Positions 20,311 to 28,245 of a stretch of DNA of 64,000 nucleotides are shown in pieces. The translations under genes and the position numbers were made by a program. Position 1 is the first letter of the stretch. The number at the start of each line of letters is the position of its first letter. Under the pieces are notes generated by a model. That model was not told the DNA's origin, did no database searches, and worked only from the letters and a program-made list of their open reading frames with translations. Location of the stretch: positions 62,001-126,000 of the forward strand of contig NZ_JABFUC010000006.1 in the NCBI RefSeq assembly GCF_022341425.1, written 5' to 3'. This stretch comes from Billgrantia campisalis (GTDB lineage: Bacteria; Pseudomonadota; Gammaproteobacteria; Pseudomonadales; Halomonadaceae).

Positions 20311-20922
20311 ATGCCGCATACACTGCCCGACCTTCCCTATGCTTTCGATGCGCTGGAGCCGTATATCGACGCCACGACCATGGAAATTCACCACGGCCGC
20401 CACCATCAGACCTATGTCAACAACCTCAACGGCGCCCTGGAGGGAACCGGCCTCGAGGAGATGCCGGTGGACGAGCTGCTCGCCAACCTCGACCGGGTGC
20501 CCGAGGATAAGCGCCAGGCGGTCATCAACAACGGTGGCGGCCACTCCAATCACTCCAAGTTCTGGCAGATGATGTCGCCGAAAGGCGGCGGCCAGCCCCA
20601 GGGCAAGGTGGCCCAGGCCATCGACAGCGAGCTGGGTGGCTTCGACGCCTTCAAGGATGCCTTCACCAAGGCGGCGTTGGGCCGCTTCGGCAGTGGCTGG
20701 GCCTGGCTCAGCGTCACCCCGGAAAAGACCCTGGTGGTGGAGAACACCCTCAACCAGGACAGCCCGCTGATGCACGGCAATACCCCGGTGCTGGGCCTGG
20801 ATGTCTGGGAACATGCCTACTACCTGAAGTACCAGAACAAGCGCCCGGACTACGTGGCCGCCTTCTTCAATGTGATCAACTGGGATGACGTGGAGCGGCG
20901 CTACCAGGCCGCAGTCTCCTGA
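20311..20922 (+). CDS. sodA: Superoxide dismutase, Mn type
   Basis: A 203-residue cytoplasmic enzyme converting superoxide to hydrogen peroxide and oxygen. Metal ligands are in [23 protein letters not shown] and the C-terminal DVWEHAYYL. The glycine before HSNH and the glutamine in NQDSPLM are the pattern of manganese enzymes; iron enzymes have glutamine in the first place and a TPL-type second motif. Cambialistic activity cannot be excluded. GGAGGAG precedes the ATG. A Fur-like box upstream suggests induction when iron is short, when an iron SOD would be inactive. A 16-bp terminator follows. Confidence 0.93.
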
Positions 20923-21125: not shown

Positions 21126-24100
21126 ATGGCTCACCTGCTACGCATCGTGATGATTCACGGCCATCTCGAGGGGGTGGTCGAGCTCAGTGTGGACGGCCAC
21201 ACCAATATCTGCGGCACCAATGCCTCGGGCAAGACCACTCTGCAGCGCCTGGTGCCGGTGTTTTATGGCGAGCTGCCCAACAAGGTGGTGCCCAAGACAC
21301 GGATGAAGTTCGATGCCTTCTACCTGCCGCATCGCAACAGCTACCTGGTCTACGAGTATCGCCGTGAAGCGGGCAACGTCTGCCAGGCGGTGCTGACCCG
21401 CAAGAGCGAGGGGGGAGTGGAGTATCGCTTCGTCGGCTCGCCCTACCGGCCCGAGGATTACCTGGTAGAGAGCGATGCCGGGGTCGCGGCCCTGGACTAC
21501 GCCCAGTGGGCCAACGGGCTGCGTCGCGAAGGGATCAGCGTGTCGGCCAAGCTGGGCGCCACCTCCGAGTACCGCTCGGTGATCCAGAACGACTTTACCC
21601 AGTTTGGCGCCTCCCAGCCCCGGGGCAACAGCCGTGACGGCCTCAAGCTGCGCCAGATCGCCGCCCAGTTCAGCCTGGTCAAGCCCGAGCGACGCATTCG
21701 CCATATCGAGAAACTGGTCTCGGCGGTGCACGCCAAGGAGGGCAAGATGGACACCCTCAAGACCATGCTGGCGGCGATCTTCGAGGAGGATGGCGTCGAG
21801 CTGCCGGTGACCCGGATCCGCAACACCAAGGCCCGTGAGTGGATCGCGCAGATGCGCCAGTCGATGCGGCTGGAGCCCCTGCAGCAGGCGCTGGGGCGTC
21901 TGGGGGAGGTGGATCGGGAGATCGCCGATCTCGAGACCACGCTGTGGCAGTTGAGACCCCAGCTGGAGGCCGACCGCCATCGCGGCGAGCGCACCCTGGC
22001 CGATCTGGCGTCGCAGCTGAACCGGCACCAGTGCGAGTTCCAGGCGCGCGAGCGCGACTACGAGCAGGCCCGGGACGCCCTCAACGACCGCACGAGCGAG
22101 CTGAGTAGCGAGCTGGATCATACCCAGCGCGACCTGAATGACCTGCAGCGCCAGTACGAGCAGTACGCCGAGGCGGACATGCCGGCCCTGGAGCGTGATC
22201 TCGAGTCCCTGCCCCAGTGGCGTGAACAGCATCAACAGCTGCGCGACCACCTGGAATTCATGCAGCAGGCCGTGCAGGCCAGCCAGGCGAAGCTGGAAGG
22301 GCGGCTGCGTGAGCTGGCCGATACCCTGGCCCGGCAGACCGATGAAGCCCAGGCGCTCATCGACGCCCTGGGCGACGAGAAGGAGGCCCGCCGTGAGCGG
22401 CACTGGGAGGCGCAGCGCACCCTCGAGGCGCGCTATCAGGCCGAGCGGAGTGACCTGGACGCCAGCTACCAGGCGCGTCTGGAGCAGGGCATCGAGCGCC
22501 TGGCCGAGCTCAAGGCGCAGCAGACCCACACCCAGACCCCCGAAGAGGTCCAGGAGGCCGAGCTGGCGCAGGCGCGCCTGGATCAGGCCCAGAGCGACCG
22601 CAGTGCGGCCGCCACCACCCTGGAGGGGCTGCGTCGCGAGCATGAGACCTGGAAGGGCGAGCGTGACGCTGCCGAGCGAGAGCTCGAGCAGGCGCGGCAG
22701 CAGCGCTCACGGGCGGAGCACCGCTGCGCAGCTCTTTATCAGCAGCGCGACCCCGCCCAGGGGAGCCTGCGCCACTTCCTGCGCTACCACCGCCCGGGGT
22801 GGGAGCAGACGCTGGGCAAGGTGATCGCCCCCGAGCTGCTGGAGCGCCGCGACCTGGCGCCCCAGGTCAAGGACACGCCCAGCGACGACCTCTTCGGCGT
22901 GGCCCTCGACCTGGCCGCGATCGCGCTGCCCGACTATGCCCAGGATGAGGCGGGCCTGCTGGCCGCCATCGAGGCGGCCGAGGTGGCCCTGACCCGTGCC
23001 GAAGCGGACGTTCAGGCCGCCGAAAAACGCCTCAGGGCCCACCACGAGCGGGTGCAGGGCGCCGAGACTACCCTGGGGCAGGCGCGCATCGCCCTCAAGC
23101 GCGCCGATACGGAGGTGGAGTACGCCCTGGAGGCACGCCGTCAGCAGCAGGAGCGCCATGCCAGGCAGCAGCAGGCGCGGCGGGCCGACGGTGAGGCGGC
23201 GCTGGCCGAACAGGAGGCGTTGCAGCAGGCGCTGCGCGATGAAAAGCGCGAGGCGCTCGAAGCGCTTGCCGACACGCATCAGGCGCAGCTGCTCGAGCTG
23301 AAGGCCGACGCTCAGAGCCAGCTGGATAGCCTGGATGAGCAGATCCGCCAGCACAAACGCCAGCTTGGCGACCTGAAGGCGGAGCATCGACGCCAGCGGG
23401 AGGAGCTGGAAGCCGCCTTCAACCAGGAGCTGGAGGCGCAAGGGGTCGATCCGGTCACCCTCAAAGAGACCAAGTCACGACTGGCGGCGCTGGAGGAGCG
23501 CATGCGCCTCACCGCGGCCCGCCAGGAGGAGCTGGCGGCCTATCGGCGCTTCATGCGCGTCGAGTGGGGCGAGCGCAAGCCGCGGCTGGTGGAGAAGGAG
23601 GCGACGCTGACCCGCGAGCGTCAGGCGGCCGAGCGCGAGCGCGAGCAGCTGCGTGGCGACTTCCAGGCGGCCAAGTCGGCCCATCAGCAGGCGGTCAGCG
23701 AGCTGAAGGCCAAGCGCCACGCCGAGCAGGAGGTGATGGACGCCCTCGCGCCGCTGCTGACCCAGGTGGAGAGCCTGGCGCTCAGCCCGGCGGCCGAGCC
23801 GCTCAGCGAAGCCCCCGGCGATGTGCACGAGCGCATCGAGCGCGCCCGCCAGGCGTTGATCGGCCGCAGCCGCGAGCTGGAGACCCTGCGCAAGGGCTGC
23901 GAGCAGGTGGAGGGCGAGCTGATCAAGGGAGCCAGTAGCGGCTTCGTCGACGCCCTGGAAGCCGAGCGCGGCAAGTTGACCGGCGACTCACCGCGGCGGC
24001 TGCTGCCGCTGCTGCGCGGCATGCTGCAACTGCTGGAGGACCAGCAGCTGCAGCTGGTGCAGCAGGGGCGCAATCTCAGCGATGATCTGGACAAGTTCTT

Positions 24101-24806
24101 CACCGTCTTTCGCGACCTCAACCGCCGCATCAGCGCCCAGAGCCGCCGCCTCTCCGAGGAGGTCGCCGACGACCTGAAGCTGGAAGGCATCGGCAAGGCC
24201 GAGGTGAAGATCCAGTCCACCATCGACGAGCTGGGCTTCTGGGAGCCGCTCAAGCTGTTCGCCCAGCGCTACCGGGAGTGGCGGGAATCGGGGCAGCCGC
24301 TGCCCAGCGACGACTACCTCGATGCCCTGGCCGACGTGGTGGAGCTGTTGCGCAGCGACCAGCAGTACAGCTTCGAAAGCCTGCTGCGCCTGGAGCTGCA
24401 CCTCAACGAAGGCGGCACCGATCTGGTGATCAAGAACGACCGCCAGCTGCTGGAGTCCTCCAGCCACGGCATGGCCTATCTGATTCTGTGCAAGTTCCTG
24501 CTCGCCTTCACGCGGCTGCTGCGCGGCCAGGCCCAGATCGCCATCCACTGGCCCATCGACGAGATCGGCACCCTGGCCTACCACAACGTCGAGAAGCTCT
24601 TCGATGCCTGCGACAGCAACCGCATCCATATCGTCGGTGCCTTTCCCAACCCGGAGTCGGACGTGCTGCTGCTGTTCCACAATCGCTACTTGATCGACCG
24701 CGACGAGGCCGACCCCAACTGCCGCCGTCTCAAGCGCATCGAGCCGCGCCTGAGCCGCCTGGCCGAGCGGCTGCAGGCGCGTAGCGCCGAGGAGGTGTCC
24801 GCATGA
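21126..24806 (+). CDS. jetC: JetC/MksB-like SMC-family ATPase (DUF3584-like)
   Basis: A 1226-residue SMC-like ATPase, the probable motor of a Wadjet/MksBEFG-type complex that extrudes loops on and destroys plasmid DNA. Walker A is GTNASGKTT with Lys36; the C-terminal head has a signature-like ESSSHGM loop (1110-1116) and Walker B WPIDEIG with Asp1145 and Glu1146. Between them are two long heptad-rich arms (about 240-530 and 640-960) around a hinge-like segment near 545-620 (RYHRPGWEQTLGKV). Length and motifs resemble the DUF3584 family rather than MukB (about 1480) or P. aeruginosa MksB (about 940). AAGGA precedes the ATG. It heads a four-gene operon with four-base overlaps. Confidence 0.82.
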   Translation: MAHLLRIVMIHGHLEGVVELSVDGHTNICGTNASGKTTLQRLVPVFYGELPNKVVPKTRMKFDAFYLPHRNSYLVYEYRREAGNVCQAVLTRKSEGGVEYRFVGSPYRPEDYLVESDAGVAALDYAQWANGLRREGISVSAKLGATSEYRSVIQNDFTQFGASQPRGNSRDGLKLRQIAAQFSLVKPERRIRHIEKLVSAVHAKEGKMDTLKTMLAAIFEEDGVELPVTRIRNTKAREWIAQMRQSMRLEPLQQALGRLGEVDREIADLETTLWQLRPQLEADRHRGERTLADLASQLNRHQCEFQARERDYEQARDALNDRTSELSSELDHTQRDLNDLQRQYEQYAEADMPALERDLESLPQWREQHQQLRDHLEFMQQAVQASQAKLEGRLRELADTLARQTDEAQALIDALGDEKEARRERHWEAQRTLEARYQAERSDLDASYQARLEQGIERLAELKAQQTHTQTPEEVQEAELAQARLDQAQSDRSAAATTLEGLRREHETWKGERDAAERELEQARQQRSRAEHRCAALYQQRDPAQGSLRHFLRYHRPGWEQTLGKVIAPELLERRDLAPQVKDTPSDDLFGVALDLAAIALPDYAQDEAGLLAAIEAAEVALTRAEADVQAAEKRLRAHHERVQGAETTLGQARIALKRADTEVEYALEARRQQQERHARQQQARRADGEAALAEQEALQQALRDEKREALEALADTHQAQLLELKADAQSQLDSLDEQIRQHKRQLGDLKAEHRRQREELEAAFNQELEAQGVDPVTLKETKSRLAALEERMRLTAARQEELAAYRRFMRVEWGERKPRLVEKEATLTRERQAAEREREQLRGDFQAAKSAHQQAVSELKAKRHAEQEVMDALAPLLTQVESLALSPAAEPLSEAPGDVHERIERARQALIGRSRELETLRKGCEQVEGELIKGASSGFVDALEAERGKLTGDSPRRLLPLLRGMLQLLEDQQLQLVQQGRNLSDDLDKFFTVFRDLNRRISAQSRRLSEEVADDLKLEGIGKAEVKIQSTIDELGFWEPLKLFAQRYREWRESGQPLPSDDYLDALADVVELLRSDQQYSFESLLRLELHLNEGGTDLVIKNDRQLLESSSHGMAYLILCKFLLAFTRLLRGQAQIAIHWPIDEIGTLAYHNVEKLFDACDSNRIHIVGAFPNPESDVLLLFHNRYLIDRDEADPNCRRLKRIEPRLSRLAERLQARSAEEVSA

Positions 24807-25459
24807 TCGAACGCTCAATGGTCGAGCACGCCATGGTGGCGTTGGGCCCACTGCTGGAGCGCCTGCTGGCCGGGGAGTTCATCTGCGCGGTGAGCGACGA
24901 GAGCGCCTTTCGTCACCTGGAGGATGAAGCGACCCGCGAGCAGATCGACACCTACCTGCGCCCGCTCAATCGTCGGCTGGCCGCCAACCCCGAAGGCAGC
25001 GTCTATTTCCTGGCCTGGCGCCAGCTGAGCGACGATGCCCGGGAGCAGCTCTCCCGCCAGCTCGGCGACACCGTCAACAGCCTGCTGCCGCTGCTGGAGT
25101 GGCTGCAGCTGGTGCAGGAGGCGCTGGGGCGCGACGCCCTGATCGCCCCCGGCGACGTGCTCAAACCCGCCGAGATCAGCGCCAGGTGCGAGGACAACCA
25201 GAGCCTGCGCGAGCGCCTGGAGCGGCTGGCCACCGACGGCTTCTTCGGTTCCCAGAGCGAGCAGCTCGACGCCCAGATCAAGCAGGTCTTCAAGCGCCTC
25301 AGAGAGCACGGCTACCTGCTCCAGCCCCATGCCGAGCGCCAGGTCTACCTGGTCACCGGCAAGATCGACTACCTGATCGACCTGGTGCGCTTCATCCGCG
25401 ACGAGGAGAACCTGCCCGTCGAGGAGGAGGGGGCCGCCACCCAGGAGGCGCTGCTGTGA
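24803..25459 (+). CDS. jetB: JetB/MksE-like condensin accessory protein
   Basis: A 218-residue acidic protein with no catalytic motif. Predicted to be helical with winged-helix-like portions (for example SLRERLERLATDGFFGSQSEQ and QIKQVFKRLREHGYLLQ), as in MukE/MksE, the small partner that binds the kleisin. Identification rests mainly on size and place between the SMC-like gene and a kleisin-like gene, with ATGA overlap to jetC and a GTGA overlap to the next gene. The C-terminal tail is strongly acidic. A methionine three codons or more downstream could be the real start without changing the call. Confidence 0.72.
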   Translation: MIERSMVEHAMVALGPLLERLLAGEFICAVSDESAFRHLEDEATREQIDTYLRPLNRRLAANPEGSVYFLAWRQLSDDAREQLSRQLGDTVNSLLPLLEWLQLVQEALGRDALIAPGDVLKPAEISARCEDNQSLRERLERLATDGFFGSQSEQLDAQIKQVFKRLREHGYLLQPHAERQVYLVTGKIDYLIDLVRFIRDEENLPVEEEGAATQEALL

Positions 25460-26712
25460 TCGGGGCCGATACGCATGATCCCCATGCCCTGGAGAGCCGC
25501 CTGGTCAGCACCGGCGCCGAGCGACTGGCGCTGCTTGGCAAGCACGCCGAGGCGCTGATGGCCGGCTACACCCGGGACGAGGTGCCGCTGGCGGCGTTGA
25601 GCGAGGCGGCCCTGCGCAAGCTGCTGGCGGCGCGGATCCTGTGGCGGCCGGACGAGCAGGGCGGCGTGAAGCTCGCCCCCAAGGTGCGCGAGCTGATCGC
25701 CGAGATGCTCGCCGACGAGAGCCGCCGTCACGTCAATGCCGACGTGGCGGAGACCCTGGAACTGCTGCGCAGCCTGGTGCAGAGTTACCGCGAGGCCCGC
25801 GACCTGGGCGAGCACTGGCGCCAGGAGCAGCACCTGCTGCGCCTGCGCCAGGAGGTGGACGACCTCAACGGGCGCTTCGCCGATGCCATCGACAGCCTCT
25901 GGCAACGCCTCAACAGCGACTTCGGCTTCGTCAGCCGCCTGAACGACAAGATCCGCGAGAACGACCGTGCCCAGAAGCAGATCGTGCGCCTGCTCGACGG
26001 CCTGGCGCTGATCGACTTCGACGAACTGATCGAGCTGGTGGGCAGCGACGGCGCCCTGCGCAAGCTGCTGATCAGCCAGCTCCAGCAGCAGCTCAGCCAG
26101 CACTACACTGGCCTGCGCGAGGTGCAGCGGCGGCTCATCGAGCTGATGGCACGCTTCCGTCAGCAGCAGTCGCGCAGTCGCTTGGTGGCGGGCATGGCCG
26201 CCTTCCTGCGCGAGCACCCCGGCTTCGTGCCCGGCAACTACGCTCGGCGCAGCGAGGTACCGGCACTGGTCAACCGCGCTACGCCCCTGACCGCCGCCGC
26301 GGCACCGGCGCTGGATCGCCACCTGGACGTCAAGGTCCTCACCGAGCTGCTCCACCGCCTGCCCGCGCCGCCGCACAAGCCGCAGACGGTCACCGCTGCG
26401 GGCCCTGCCGAGGCCCAGGAGGCGAGCCTGGTGGCCGCCCGTCAGCAGGCGCTCAAGCAGGACGTGGAGCGCTTCTACCTGACCGTGATCGACCACGACG
26501 GCGAGGCGCTGAGCGCCCTGGCCTACCTGCGGGCCAGCGACATGGCGTGGACCGACGAGATCTGGCTGTTCCAGGTGATCGCCGAATTTCAGGGGCTGCC
26601 GAGAGGCGAGCAGTGCGCCTTTCGTCTGCACCAGGAGGAGAGCCAGGCGAGCCCTTTCAACCATCTGCGTCTGATCCATGACGTTCATCTGCAGCTGGCG
26701 CTGCCGGCATGA
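25456..26712 (+). CDS. jetA: JetA/MksF-like kleisin
   Basis: A 418-residue, mostly helical protein that fits the MukF/MksF kleisin role: an N-terminal winged-helix-like region (residues about 20-95, ending KVRELIAEMLADES), a long helical middle (SLVQSYREARDLGEHWRQEQ through LIELMARFRQQQ) and a C-terminal domain ending QLALPA. Kleisins bridge the two SMC heads. The start is GTG at 25456, overlapping the jetB stop; reading further upstream in this frame only covers jetB. It overlaps jetD by four bases. No Pfam-level motif is obvious by eye, so the function is inferred from operon context. Confidence 0.7.
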   Translation: MIGADTHDPHALESRLVSTGAERLALLGKHAEALMAGYTRDEVPLAALSEAALRKLLAARILWRPDEQGGVKLAPKVRELIAEMLADESRRHVNADVAETLELLRSLVQSYREARDLGEHWRQEQHLLRLRQEVDDLNGRFADAIDSLWQRLNSDFGFVSRLNDKIRENDRAQKQIVRLLDGLALIDFDELIELVGSDGALRKLLISQLQQQLSQHYTGLREVQRRLIELMARFRQQQSRSRLVAGMAAFLREHPGFVPGNYARRSEVPALVNRATPLTAAAAPALDRHLDVKVLTELLHRLPAPPHKPQTVTAAGPAEAQEASLVAARQQALKQDVERFYLTVIDHDGEALSALAYLRASDMAWTDEIWLFQVIAEFQGLPRGEQCAFRLHQEESQASPFNHLRLIHDVHLQLALPA

Positions 26713-27602
26713 GCCTCTCGCCCGGCGCCTACAAGCTGCTGCGCGGGATTCGGGAGCGGCTGCGCCGCGCGCCCGGGGTGGAAAAGCCGCGCAGCGGCAA
26801 GGTTGTGGCGGAGATCGAGGCCTGGTGCGCCGAGCATGACATTGAGCTTGGTGTCCGCCGCTCCACCAAGGCGCTGCGCTTTGACCGCGAGCTGCTCACC
26901 CAGATCGATGACACCCTGGCCGCGCTGGGTCAGCCGGCGATCGACGTTGACCTCAGCGGCCTGACCAGCGGCGAACAGGCCGGTCGGGGAAGTCTCGAAG
27001 CCAAGAGCGTGCGTGAAAGCCCCCGCGCCAGGCGGGTGCTGGTGAGCCTGGCTGCCGGCGCACCGCGGCCCGGCCTGGTCGCCGAGACTCGCGAGTATCG
27101 CGACCTCGACCGGCGCTCGCTCGACCTGGGGGCCTTTGATGCGCTGATCCAGGTGGAAAACCTCGACGGCTTCTACGCCTTCGACCCCGACAGTGTGGCT
27201 GGCGCCCGCTGGCGGAATCCGCTGGTGGTCTATCGTGGCGACACGCACTACGGCGGGGGGTTCGCCGCCCTGGCCGAGGCCTGGGCGGCAACGGCGAAAC
27301 CGCACTGCTACCTGGGCGATTTCGACGCTTCCGGGGTGGGATTCGCCCTCGCCAGCCGGGCCACCCATCTGCTGCTGCCGCCCCGGGAGTGGCTTGAACA
27401 GCACGCCACCCCCGATCACCTGCCGGCCGCGCAGATGACGGCACAGGCGGGATTGCGCGACCACCGGGATACGCTGCCAGATGGCCACCCCTTACGAGAG
27501 CATCTGGCGCTCATTCTCGATGAGCAGCGGGGACTTCGCCAGCAGTGGTTCGCCGAACGGCTGGTAAGGGTATCGCTGGGACGAGATGTGGTCGGCGCTT
27601 AG
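26709..27602 (+). CDS. jetD: JetD-like Toprim nuclease subunit
   Basis: A 297-residue protein whose C-terminal half is a Toprim-like domain: Glu150 in LIQVENLDGFY, a conserved glycine-rich turn VVYRGDTHYGGGF, and the DxD pair Asp204/Asp206 in YLGDFDASGVGFA. This is the metal-binding arrangement of topoisomerase VI/JetD nucleases, which cut plasmid DNA in Wadjet systems. At 297 residues it is shorter than the roughly 380-400 residue JetD of type I Wadjet, so the N-terminal arm is reduced. It overlaps jetA by four bases and ends nine bases from a convergent small gene. Confidence 0.78.
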   Translation: MSLSPGAYKLLRGIRERLRRAPGVEKPRSGKVVAEIEAWCAEHDIELGVRRSTKALRFDRELLTQIDDTLAALGQPAIDVDLSGLTSGEQAGRGSLEAKSVRESPRARRVLVSLAAGAPRPGLVAETREYRDLDRRSLDLGAFDALIQVENLDGFYAFDPDSVAGARWRNPLVVYRGDTHYGGGFAALAEAWAATAKPHCYLGDFDASGVGFALASRATHLLLPPREWLEQHATPDHLPAAQMTAQAGLRDHRDTLPDGHPLREHLALILDEQRGLRQQWFAERLVRVSLGRDVVGA

Positions 27603-27611
27603 GGGCACCTC

Positions 27612-28016
27612 TTACCACCCCAGCCAGCCACGCAGCCGCTGGCTGGGCGATGATGCACGTCTGGCTGATGCGCGGTTGGCAGTGCCGGAAAGCTGTGAGG
27701 TGGCTTCCTTGAGCGGCGCCATGATGGCTTCGAGGTGGTGCTGGCAGAGTTGGCGGTTGAGGGCGGCGGGGCACTGTGCCATCAACAGGCCGCAGTGGTA
27801 GATCGCAGTATCCAGCGCCTGGCAGACCTCATTGAAAGGCGCCGCCTCCTGGCGGCAACGCTGCAATTCACTGAGCAGCATCCGCAGCGTTTGAGCATCG
27901 AGCCAGCAGGGCGTGTCATCTCTCCTTGGAGAGGTTGCCACCGAGTTCTGGATGGCCTGGAAGGAGACGTGAAGAAAGACACAGGTGTAATAGAGCTGGG
28001 AGCGTTCCGTGTTCAT
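27612..28016 (-). CDS. Small protein of unknown function under a Fur-like box
   Basis: A 134-residue, probably cytoplasmic helical protein, not recognised. It begins MNTERSQLYYTCVFLHVSFQ and contains six cysteines, a leucine-rich core (LDAQTLRMLLSELQRC) and a basic, serine-rich tail (RASARRASSPSQRLRG). The start at 28016 is preferred because a Fur-like site at 28040-28058 lies just upstream; an ATG at 28076 would place that site inside the gene. The Shine-Dalgarno is weak for both. Its neighbours are a TonB receptor and the jet operon. It has the size and regulation expected of small Fur-associated proteins, but I cannot assign a family. Confidence 0.55.
   Translation of the reverse strand: MNTERSQLYYTCVFLHVSFQAIQNSVATSPRRDDTPCWLDAQTLRMLLSELQRCRQEAAPFNEVCQALDTAIYHCGLLMAQCPAALNRQLCQHHLEAIMAPLKEATSQLSGTANRASARRASSPSQRLRGWLGW
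27619..27647 (+). terminator. Hairpin at the end of the jet operon
   Basis: A perfect 10-bp stem (27619-27628 with 27638-27647, nine-base loop) lies 16 bases after the jetD stop. There is no T-run and it also encodes the last residues of the convergent minus-strand gene, so a terminator role is uncertain. Confidence 0.35.
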
Positions 28017-28039
28017 AGGGCACCATAAGTCATCAAGAT

Positions 28040-28058
28040 GAGACTGATTTTCATTCTG
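28040..28058. promoter_or_regulatory. Fur-like box before the small minus-strand gene
   Basis: This site matches the 19-base Fur consensus at 13 positions, with the core TGAAAATCA when read on the minus strand. It lies 24 bases upstream of the chosen start at 28016 and 129 bases past the end of the TonB receptor terminator. Confidence 0.45.
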
Positions 28059-28186
28059 GTGTTCGGTGGCGGTCATGTCAAATGCTAAAGCGTGACTCCC
28101 ACCCACGCTCGTCGGCTTCTCTCCTCGAACAGCGTCTGCGGCGACGCAACCCGCGCTCGTCCAGGGTGCACTGATGGGGGTCCGCG

Positions 28187-28212
28187 AAAAAGAGCCAGCG
28201 CGGGGCTGGCTC
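28187..28212 (-). terminator. Rho-independent terminator of the TonB-receptor gene
   Basis: On the minus strand an 8-bp GC-rich stem (28212-28205 with 28199-28192, loop of five) is followed directly by five T residues (28191-28187). It lies 34 bases after the receptor stop codon. Confidence 0.85.
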
Positions 28213-28245
28213 AAAGCGATCGATACAGTTCCGGTAAAGGTGGCG

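Follow-up and report, generated by a model that had tools for sequence, protein, structure and literature searches.

The window, a stretch of 64,000 nucleotides of Billgrantia campisalis DNA (G000:C44:62001-126000 in the genome-wide search, from a genome of 4.27 Mb with Halomonas as the source of its best matches among named proteins), carries four open reading frames on the plus strand at 21126-27602, each overlapping the next by four bases. They encode an SMC-type ATPase, a KITE subunit, a predicted kleisin and a predicted Toprim nuclease (Table 1). A sequence-only reading of this DNA had described the same four overlapping genes as an SMC, MukE-like, MukF-like and Toprim set of the Wadjet/MksBEFG kind, and both the layout and a set of SMC, KITE, kleisin and JetD-like Toprim are supported, the latter by profiles and predicted folds. 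For the kleisin, the frame in the mechanical ORF list begins upstream at 25099 and we took the gene from the GTG at 25456. The order SMC-KITE-kleisin was found in all 86 loci with the first three genes; the Toprim gene is present in 51 of these and is the last gene in 51 out of 51. The four-gene set is real and chance is ruled out.

Table 1. Genes and sequence features of the operon, with positions in the window.
Feature	Position	Strand	Evidence
SMC-type ATPase, DUF3584 family, 1226 aa, JetC/MksB position in the complex	21126..24806	+	PF12128 over residues 8-1191, 752 bits
Walker A NICGTNASGKTTL, residues 30-38, K36	21213..21239	+	Alignment and residue check
Likely hinge region, residues 543-611	22752..22958	+	Conserved residues and composition
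ABC signature ESSSHG, residues 1110-1116 (S1112, S1113, G1115)	24453..24473	+	Alignment and residue check
Walker B WPIDE, D1145 and E1146	24558..24563	+	Alignment and residue check
KITE subunit (MksE/MukE/JetB-like), 218 aa	24803..25459	+	PF21980 (MksE), 37.4 bits, cut-off 27
Predicted kleisin (MukF/MksF/JetA-like), 418 aa, GTG start	25456..26712	+	AlphaFold2 model and Foldseek
Predicted Toprim nuclease (JetD/MksG/Top6A-like), DUF7281 family, 297 aa, optional part	26709..27602	+	PF23947 and predicted fold
Small N-terminal domain of the Toprim protein, residues 1-72, its most variable part	26709..26924	+	Pairwise identity
Toprim acidic residue E150	27156..27158	+	Invariant in 38/38; aligns with canonical JetD E269
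Toprim D204-x-D206	27318..27326	+	Invariant in 38/38; aligns with canonical JetD D312/D314

The first protein matches DUF3584 (Pfam: PF12128) far over its cut-off of 31 bits. The ATPase motifs are located where the sequence-only reading had put them, and in an alignment of 42 SMC sequences, one of them a fragment, 40 or 41 keep each of Walker A, signature and Walker B. Residues of the hinge region are kept in this alignment together with those of the head. The conserved residues P543, W559, G564, G591, P602 and E608 lie in a Gly/Pro-richer island amid likely coiled coil, and residues 543-611 are thus likely to be the hinge. That the ATPase is of the DUF3584 kind rather than a JetC had also been proposed and agrees with our searches, as the PADLOC JetC models reach at best 19.1 bits, and in a profile comparison with canonical JetC only the surroundings of Walker A aligned, at a probability of 48%. 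Nor does the protein fall with Smc, MukB or RecN, the placements named as evidence against the sequence-only reading: it scores 24 bits against the Smc model TIGR02168 (cut-off 567), and no MukB or RecN match was listed in the family profile searches. The MukB domain (Pfam: PF04310) had no match in the window protein or elsewhere in the genome, while the E. coli control was positive. A sequence search of the PDB with the SMC gave no relative.

The KITE subunit is over the cut-off of MksE (Pfam: PF21980) in the window, and the KITE of locus L091 scores 29 bits; the match to DUF4194 is below the cut-off (20.7 bits against 32.7). No PADLOC JetB model was matched at E up to 1, the only PADLOC match being a weak one to BrxC with 9.8 bits. 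The kleisin has no convincing family match by sequence in PADLOC, Pfam and further family profiles, and no match to the JetA models or DUF3375 at E up to 1. A search of the PDB with its profile returned only chains that look unrelated, and in a profile comparison with canonical JetA nothing aligned. Its AlphaFold2 model has a pLDDT of 81 and a pTM of 0.43, and the best seven Foldseek matches of this model are MukBEF, MukE-MukF and E. coli JetABC chains (E 2e-3 to 3e-2, TM-scores below 0.2). From this weak likeness of the model, the third gene product is predicted to be a MukF/JetA-like kleisin.

The last protein belongs to the DUF7281 family (Pfam: PF23947; 37.8 bits, cut-off 27). Glu150, Asp204 and Asp206, which had been picked out beforehand as the Toprim residues, are invariant in all 38 aligned sequences. 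The predicted model resembles JetD, MksG and topoisomerase VI A, so that the gene product is predicted to fold as a JetD-like Toprim nuclease; a last gene lacking the Toprim fold, which would have spoken against the sequence-only reading, is not what the model gives. No PADLOC JetD model, JetD_C or DUF3322 was matched. In the PDB, the sequence search found only an unrelated chimera (E 0.07), which we rejected, and the profile search found only MksG (8b7f), weakly, at E 0.52. Among 20 Halomonadaceae sequences the median pairwise identity is 40% over residues 1-72 and 56% over residues 105-290.

Two of the compared genomes, G004 and G343, carry canonical Wadjet I operons (loci L178 and L180), which served as controls. 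PADLOC recognised all four proteins of both, with best scores of 283 to 1603 bits (JetC 1603 and 1505, JetA 705 and 841, JetD 481 and 527), so a canonical system in the window would have been detected. A comparison with the JetA-D models of types I to III had been suggested for the operon; the PADLOC Wadjet models gave the SMC at most 19.1 bits and did not recognise the KITE, the kleisin or the Toprim protein. By the definition of these models, the operon therefore falls outside Wadjet types I, II and III. In G004 and G343 the DUF3584 set and canonical Wadjet I coexist, the DUF3584 set of G343 being without Toprim.

With Wadjet type I and MksBEFG the operon has in common an SMC, a KITE, a kleisin and a Toprim protein encoded together. 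The predicted Toprim fold and its acidic residues align with canonical JetD, and the KITE matches Pfam MksE, as canonical JetB does. The differences from Wadjet type I are several. The window SMC is of PF12128, a family that the canonical JetC of L178 and L180 does not match, its hits being AAA_29 and SbcC_Walker_B. The kleisin shows no DUF3375 match, and the Toprim protein shows none to the JetD_C and DUF3322 domains that are matched by the canonical JetD of L178, is about 110-130 residues shorter and is optional. The gene order had been noted as unusual, and indeed both canonical operons run JetA-JetB-JetC-JetD, whereas here the order is reversed, SMC-KITE-kleisin(-Toprim). The MksG architecture is given as DUF3322 plus DUF2220 in a passage of PMC10123090, and no match of this kind was listed for the Toprim protein in Pfam.

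The three-gene MksBEF of Pseudomonas aeruginosa, which has no MksG, likewise combines SMC, KITE and kleisin in a core that has no nuclease and occurs next to an ordinary Smc. Here, in contrast, one and the same family shows the nuclease missing many times over, and the SMC is set apart by its family assignment, DUF3584. Likeness to MukBEF lies in the kleisin, the best Foldseek matches of which are mostly MukBEF/MukEF chains, and in the KITE, which is of the MksE type; the window SMC, however, has no MukB domain match, and MukB is over the cut-off in only one of 59 genomes (G305). The plan of SMC head and coiled coil is common to Smc-ScpAB, but ordinary Smc is encoded separately in the same genome (G000:C46). 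Chromosomal Smc was found alongside in 56 of the 59 genomes (E 1e-60), so the DUF3584 complex is an extra one. Going by the available models, the operon belongs to neither Wadjet nor MksBEF; its SMC forms a separate branch, DUF3584, whose partner is a small JetD-like protein of a likewise separate family, DUF7281.

An SMC over the DUF3584 cut-off is present in 20 of 37 genomes of the window's genus (the window's included) and in 22 of 58 relatives overall. In the large samples (phylum, class and the families f27 and f44) the best two to six candidates per genome were scored, and the counts are lower bounds: at least 22 of 398 genomes in the phylum sample, at least 11 of 377 in the class sample, at least 74 of 147 in f27 and at least 95 of 96 in f44. 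We infer that f44, the family holding Shewanella, is Shewanellaceae and that f1 is Halomonadaceae. The Toprim profile matches in 29 of 59 genomes of a first set, in 53 of 96 of f44 and in 19 of 147 of the f27 set, one of the last being a weak hit in G867. Merging the sets of 59, 96 and 147, with 12 genomes counted once, gives 290 different genomes; the SMC is found in at least 199 of them and the Toprim in 97, all of which are among the 199 SMC carriers, but since the groups were chosen for SMC carriage, include some draft assemblies and contain relatives that do not count as independent, these counts are not population frequencies.

By profile search, the Toprim is absent from 102 of the 199 SMC-bearing genomes, and an intact Toprim was found in none of the 91 SMC-negative genomes, the sole exception being the weak match in G867 (E 9.8e-5), which has an internal stop. 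Core and Toprim are thus separable, and in the genomes searched the dependence is one-way, as the Toprim occurs only with the SMC and the SMC often without the Toprim. On a tree of 46 SMC sequences of f44 and Gallaecimonas the presence of Toprim changes at least nine times, and on a wider tree of 41 sequences, which includes the uninformative contig-edge loci L068 and L021, at most nine times.

Closely related loci that differ in the Toprim gene point to how it disappears. L071 matches L077 and L061 on both flanks and the Toprim is missing from it. L062 and L064 have about 95% DNA identity throughout the core and, with gaps, along 7.7 kb upstream; beyond the kleisin, L062 continues with the Toprim and L064 with about 2.5 kb of other genes, arranged as in L071. 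L200 is 96% identical to its near-twin L215 through the core; their alignment ends with the kleisin gene and picks up again close to the end of the L215 Toprim gene. In L200 a remnant of the Toprim tail, 28 residues long, is retained (E 6e-8, and 0.045 with a weaker profile); of the 33 Toprim-less loci, the remaining 32 gave no similarly strong remnant, the next best having E 0.11. Judging from these comparisons, Toprim-less loci appear to arise by loss rather than gain. Replacement by another nuclease gene at this site was not supported: in 20 of 20 Toprim-less f44 loci examined, the space from the kleisin to the following long ORF of the operon strand (in L191, to the CmoM-like gene) has room for no ORF of at least 100 aa. 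L196 has a 120-aa ORF that begins after the kleisin and overlaps the next ORF.

The core genes are conserved at about the pace of household genes. Over 190 pairs from 20 Halomonadaceae genomes the median identities are 77.6% for Smc, 69.2% for the DUF3584 SMC, 79.2% for the KITE and 78.2% for the kleisin. For the Toprim the median is 50.5% (153 Halomonadaceae pairs with the gene in both), lower than for Smc in 151 of the 153. Over 21 f44 loci it is 43% against 78% for the kleisin, and the Toprim is the lower in all 210 pairs. In three pairs with one Toprim-less member the core has dN/dS of 0.06-0.10 and open frames; in four pairs with Toprim in both, the core has 0.00-0.11 (L080/L081 being nearly saturated) and the Toprim 0.14-0.25. 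For three pairs with Toprim in neither, synonymous sites are saturated and give no ratio. The household pace, seen in identities and dN/dS, extends to two Halomonadaceae lineages without Toprim, and with dN/dS of about 0.1 in the pairs compared the core is under strong purifying selection where the Toprim is missing. Distances of the Toprim correlate with those of the kleisin (Mantel r 0.69 over 18 Halomonadaceae genomes, against 0.44 with Smc; r 0.95 over 21 f44 loci, the divergent L225 omitted), as expected if the Toprim is inherited with the core.

Among f44 genomes of at most three contigs, more than one contig is found in 5 of 19 with Toprim and in 2 of 18 without. Two of the five have only small chromosome-like fragments as extra contigs and were dropped from the comparison: contigs of 8,978 and 13,375 bases were rejected as plasmids, since their ORFs suggest a peptide-synthetase fragment and a gmhB-bearing chromosomal fragment. 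The other three Toprim-bearing genomes have five extra contigs, candidate plasmids, of 150-279 kb. The extra contigs of the two Toprim-less genomes, G1000 and G1027, measure 50 and 63 kb and are both plasmids in PLSDB; they agree in length, and without a difference over 8 kb of sequence, with plasmids of Shewanella sp. SNU WT4 and S. khirikhana. In addition, Halomonas sp. Y3 (G007), with Toprim, has a plasmid of 24,166 bp, G004, with the full operon and canonical Wadjet I, has a 5,783-bp contig resembling small mobilisable plasmids, and G896 of f27, with Toprim, has a second contig, likewise a candidate plasmid, of 90,768 bases. The contig sizes in f44 fit a size-limited restriction on far too few genomes for a test, the small plasmids of G007 and G004 speak against it, and the overall picture is mixed.

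The sequence-only reading had concluded that the operon is a less-studied Wadjet branch that protects against plasmids. As stated, this claim is not supported, in view of the missing recognition by the PADLOC Wadjet models, the many SMC-bearing genomes without Toprim, the near-universal SMC in f44 and the mixed plasmid co-occurrence. We consider it somewhat probable that the operon encodes a loop-extruding complex similar to Wadjet and MukBEF whose nuclease is detachable and which, with the nuclease in place, likely acts against plasmids, and that its core has a further function independent of the nuclease. The four products likely assemble into a motor that would reel in DNA by loop extrusion, and the Toprim subunit, where present, would cut the reeled-in DNA. 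By analogy with Wadjet, the motor would exhaust the DNA on a small circle, the stalled complex would let a Toprim dimer cut, and cutting of circles would restrict small plasmids. The SMC-KITE-kleisin core would have a second job without the nuclease, probably on the chromosome beside ordinary Smc, because it stays intact and under strong purifying selection without the nuclease and is near-universal in f44. The frequent core without the cutter gene in relatives suggests the same, that the motor also has a likely job of its own. The operon would most likely act like Wadjet when complete and like an MksBEF-type condensin when bare.

An explanation by plasmid defence only, with the operon a further Wadjet branch and the Toprim-less genomes holding its decaying remains, would account for the JetD-like predicted fold, the four-part set, the fast-evolving effector and the patchy occurrence in the window's genus and the class sample, and the larger extra contigs of Toprim-bearing f44 genomes would agree with it, on far too few genomes. 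We regard it as unlikely, because the pairs compared show no decay of cores that lack the Toprim, 11 of 19 SMC-bearing genomes outside the window's family (59-genome set) have no Toprim, f44 retains the SMC almost throughout, and small plasmids occur alongside the full operon in G004 and G007. Carriage by at least 95 of 96 f44 genomes looks more like a household complex than a patchy defence system. It is also rather improbable that the complex serves mainly to organise the chromosome, as a condensin of the MukBEF/MksBEF kind whose Toprim protein is a chromosome-directed helper in topology or repair and no weapon, as the Toprim is often absent and evolves fast, unlike a household topoisomerase. 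That the Toprim gene is an unrelated passenger sitting after the core could be argued from its dispensability, as it is missing from about half of the SMC-bearing genomes searched, and from L031, where kleisin and Toprim are separated by two other long ORFs. We give this very little credence, given that no intact Toprim was seen in the 91 genomes without the SMC, that the gene invariably closes the operon on its strand, in most cases overlapping the kleisin gene or lying almost against it, and that its distances track those of the kleisin.

Returning to the loop-extruding complex with a detachable nuclease, a more tentative extension, on which we stop just short of even confidence, is that the DUF3584 complex is an SMC machine with two uses, a still-living intermediate between condensin and Wadjet. 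It would be a household loop motor, present in nearly all of the Shewanella family, whose fast-evolving JetD-like blade is carried by some lineages and dropped by others, close relatives differing in whether they are armed. A passage of the review PMC10586767 calls the relation of chromosome-organising SMC complexes to the plasmid-cutting Wadjet unresolved, and the passage on DUF3584 in PMC3695513 concerns coiled-coil overlaps. Among the literature matches listed (titles and abstract openings, with subscription papers and preprints outside the scope) there was no paper on this operon, no match for DUF7281 and none for Shewanella with MksB. New here is the separation of core and Toprim. Close strains whose motor genes are all intact but whose nuclease gene is either there or almost entirely gone offer a natural experiment on a motor without its blade, and on how a nuclease is kept and lost. 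The analysis also offers a likely function for two Pfam families of unknown function, DUF3584 and DUF7281, and a correction for the misnamed kleisin.

SodB lies near the operon in the window; elsewhere it does so in 3 of 41 loci, a set that includes short ones, and at this count a general synteny with SodB was rejected.

The operon of the window was compared with its counterparts in the genomes G106 and G448, for which the DUF3584 SMC is 74-76% and the kleisin 81-82% identical to the window proteins, while the chromosomal Smc shows only 64% identity. As both operon proteins exceed the chromosomal Smc in identity, these sequence comparisons suggest that the operon was moved between genera.

Searching plasmid records with the window SMC gave 44 records with a region resembling DUF3584 SMC, among others from Vibrio, Acinetobacter, Pseudomonas and Aromatoleum. 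Identity was below 60% in all 44 regions and in none did the query coverage reach 80%. The window Toprim protein had no matches in the search of plasmid records.

The genes flanking the operon are listed in the table below. The 200-aa ORF of the window is without a Pfam match at E <=1e-4. A Fe/Mn superoxide dismutase gene, located upstream in the window, is found downstream of the operon and on the opposite strand in three other loci (L031, L060 and L078). In L031, which belongs to Halomonas sp. Kmv22, the kleisin and Toprim genes are separated by ~3.1 kb (L031:4793-7932), an interval containing two other long ORFs.

Features adjoining the operon in the window and in two g72 loci
Feature	Position	Strand	Placement
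Fe/Mn superoxide dismutase gene	window 20311-20922	same as operon	upstream of operon
200-aa ORF	window 27612-28214	-, opposite to operon	directly 3' of operon
CmoM-like tRNA methyltransferase	L191:3237-4019	opposite to operon	next after kleisin; L191 lacks Toprim
CmoM-like tRNA methyltransferase	L085:4856-5641	opposite to operon	next after Toprim

In two genomes of g72, a genus of the Shewanella-containing family f44, a CmoM-like tRNA methyltransferase gene adjoins the 3' end of the operon, with a match of 272 bits, below the cut-off of 366. In E. coli, cmoM (smtA) likewise adjoins mukFEB.

Many Shewanella records (P0244 onward) and some others (P0142) give the kleisin-like protein the name 'phosphoenolpyruvate carboxylase', apparently a misannotation that has been propagated.
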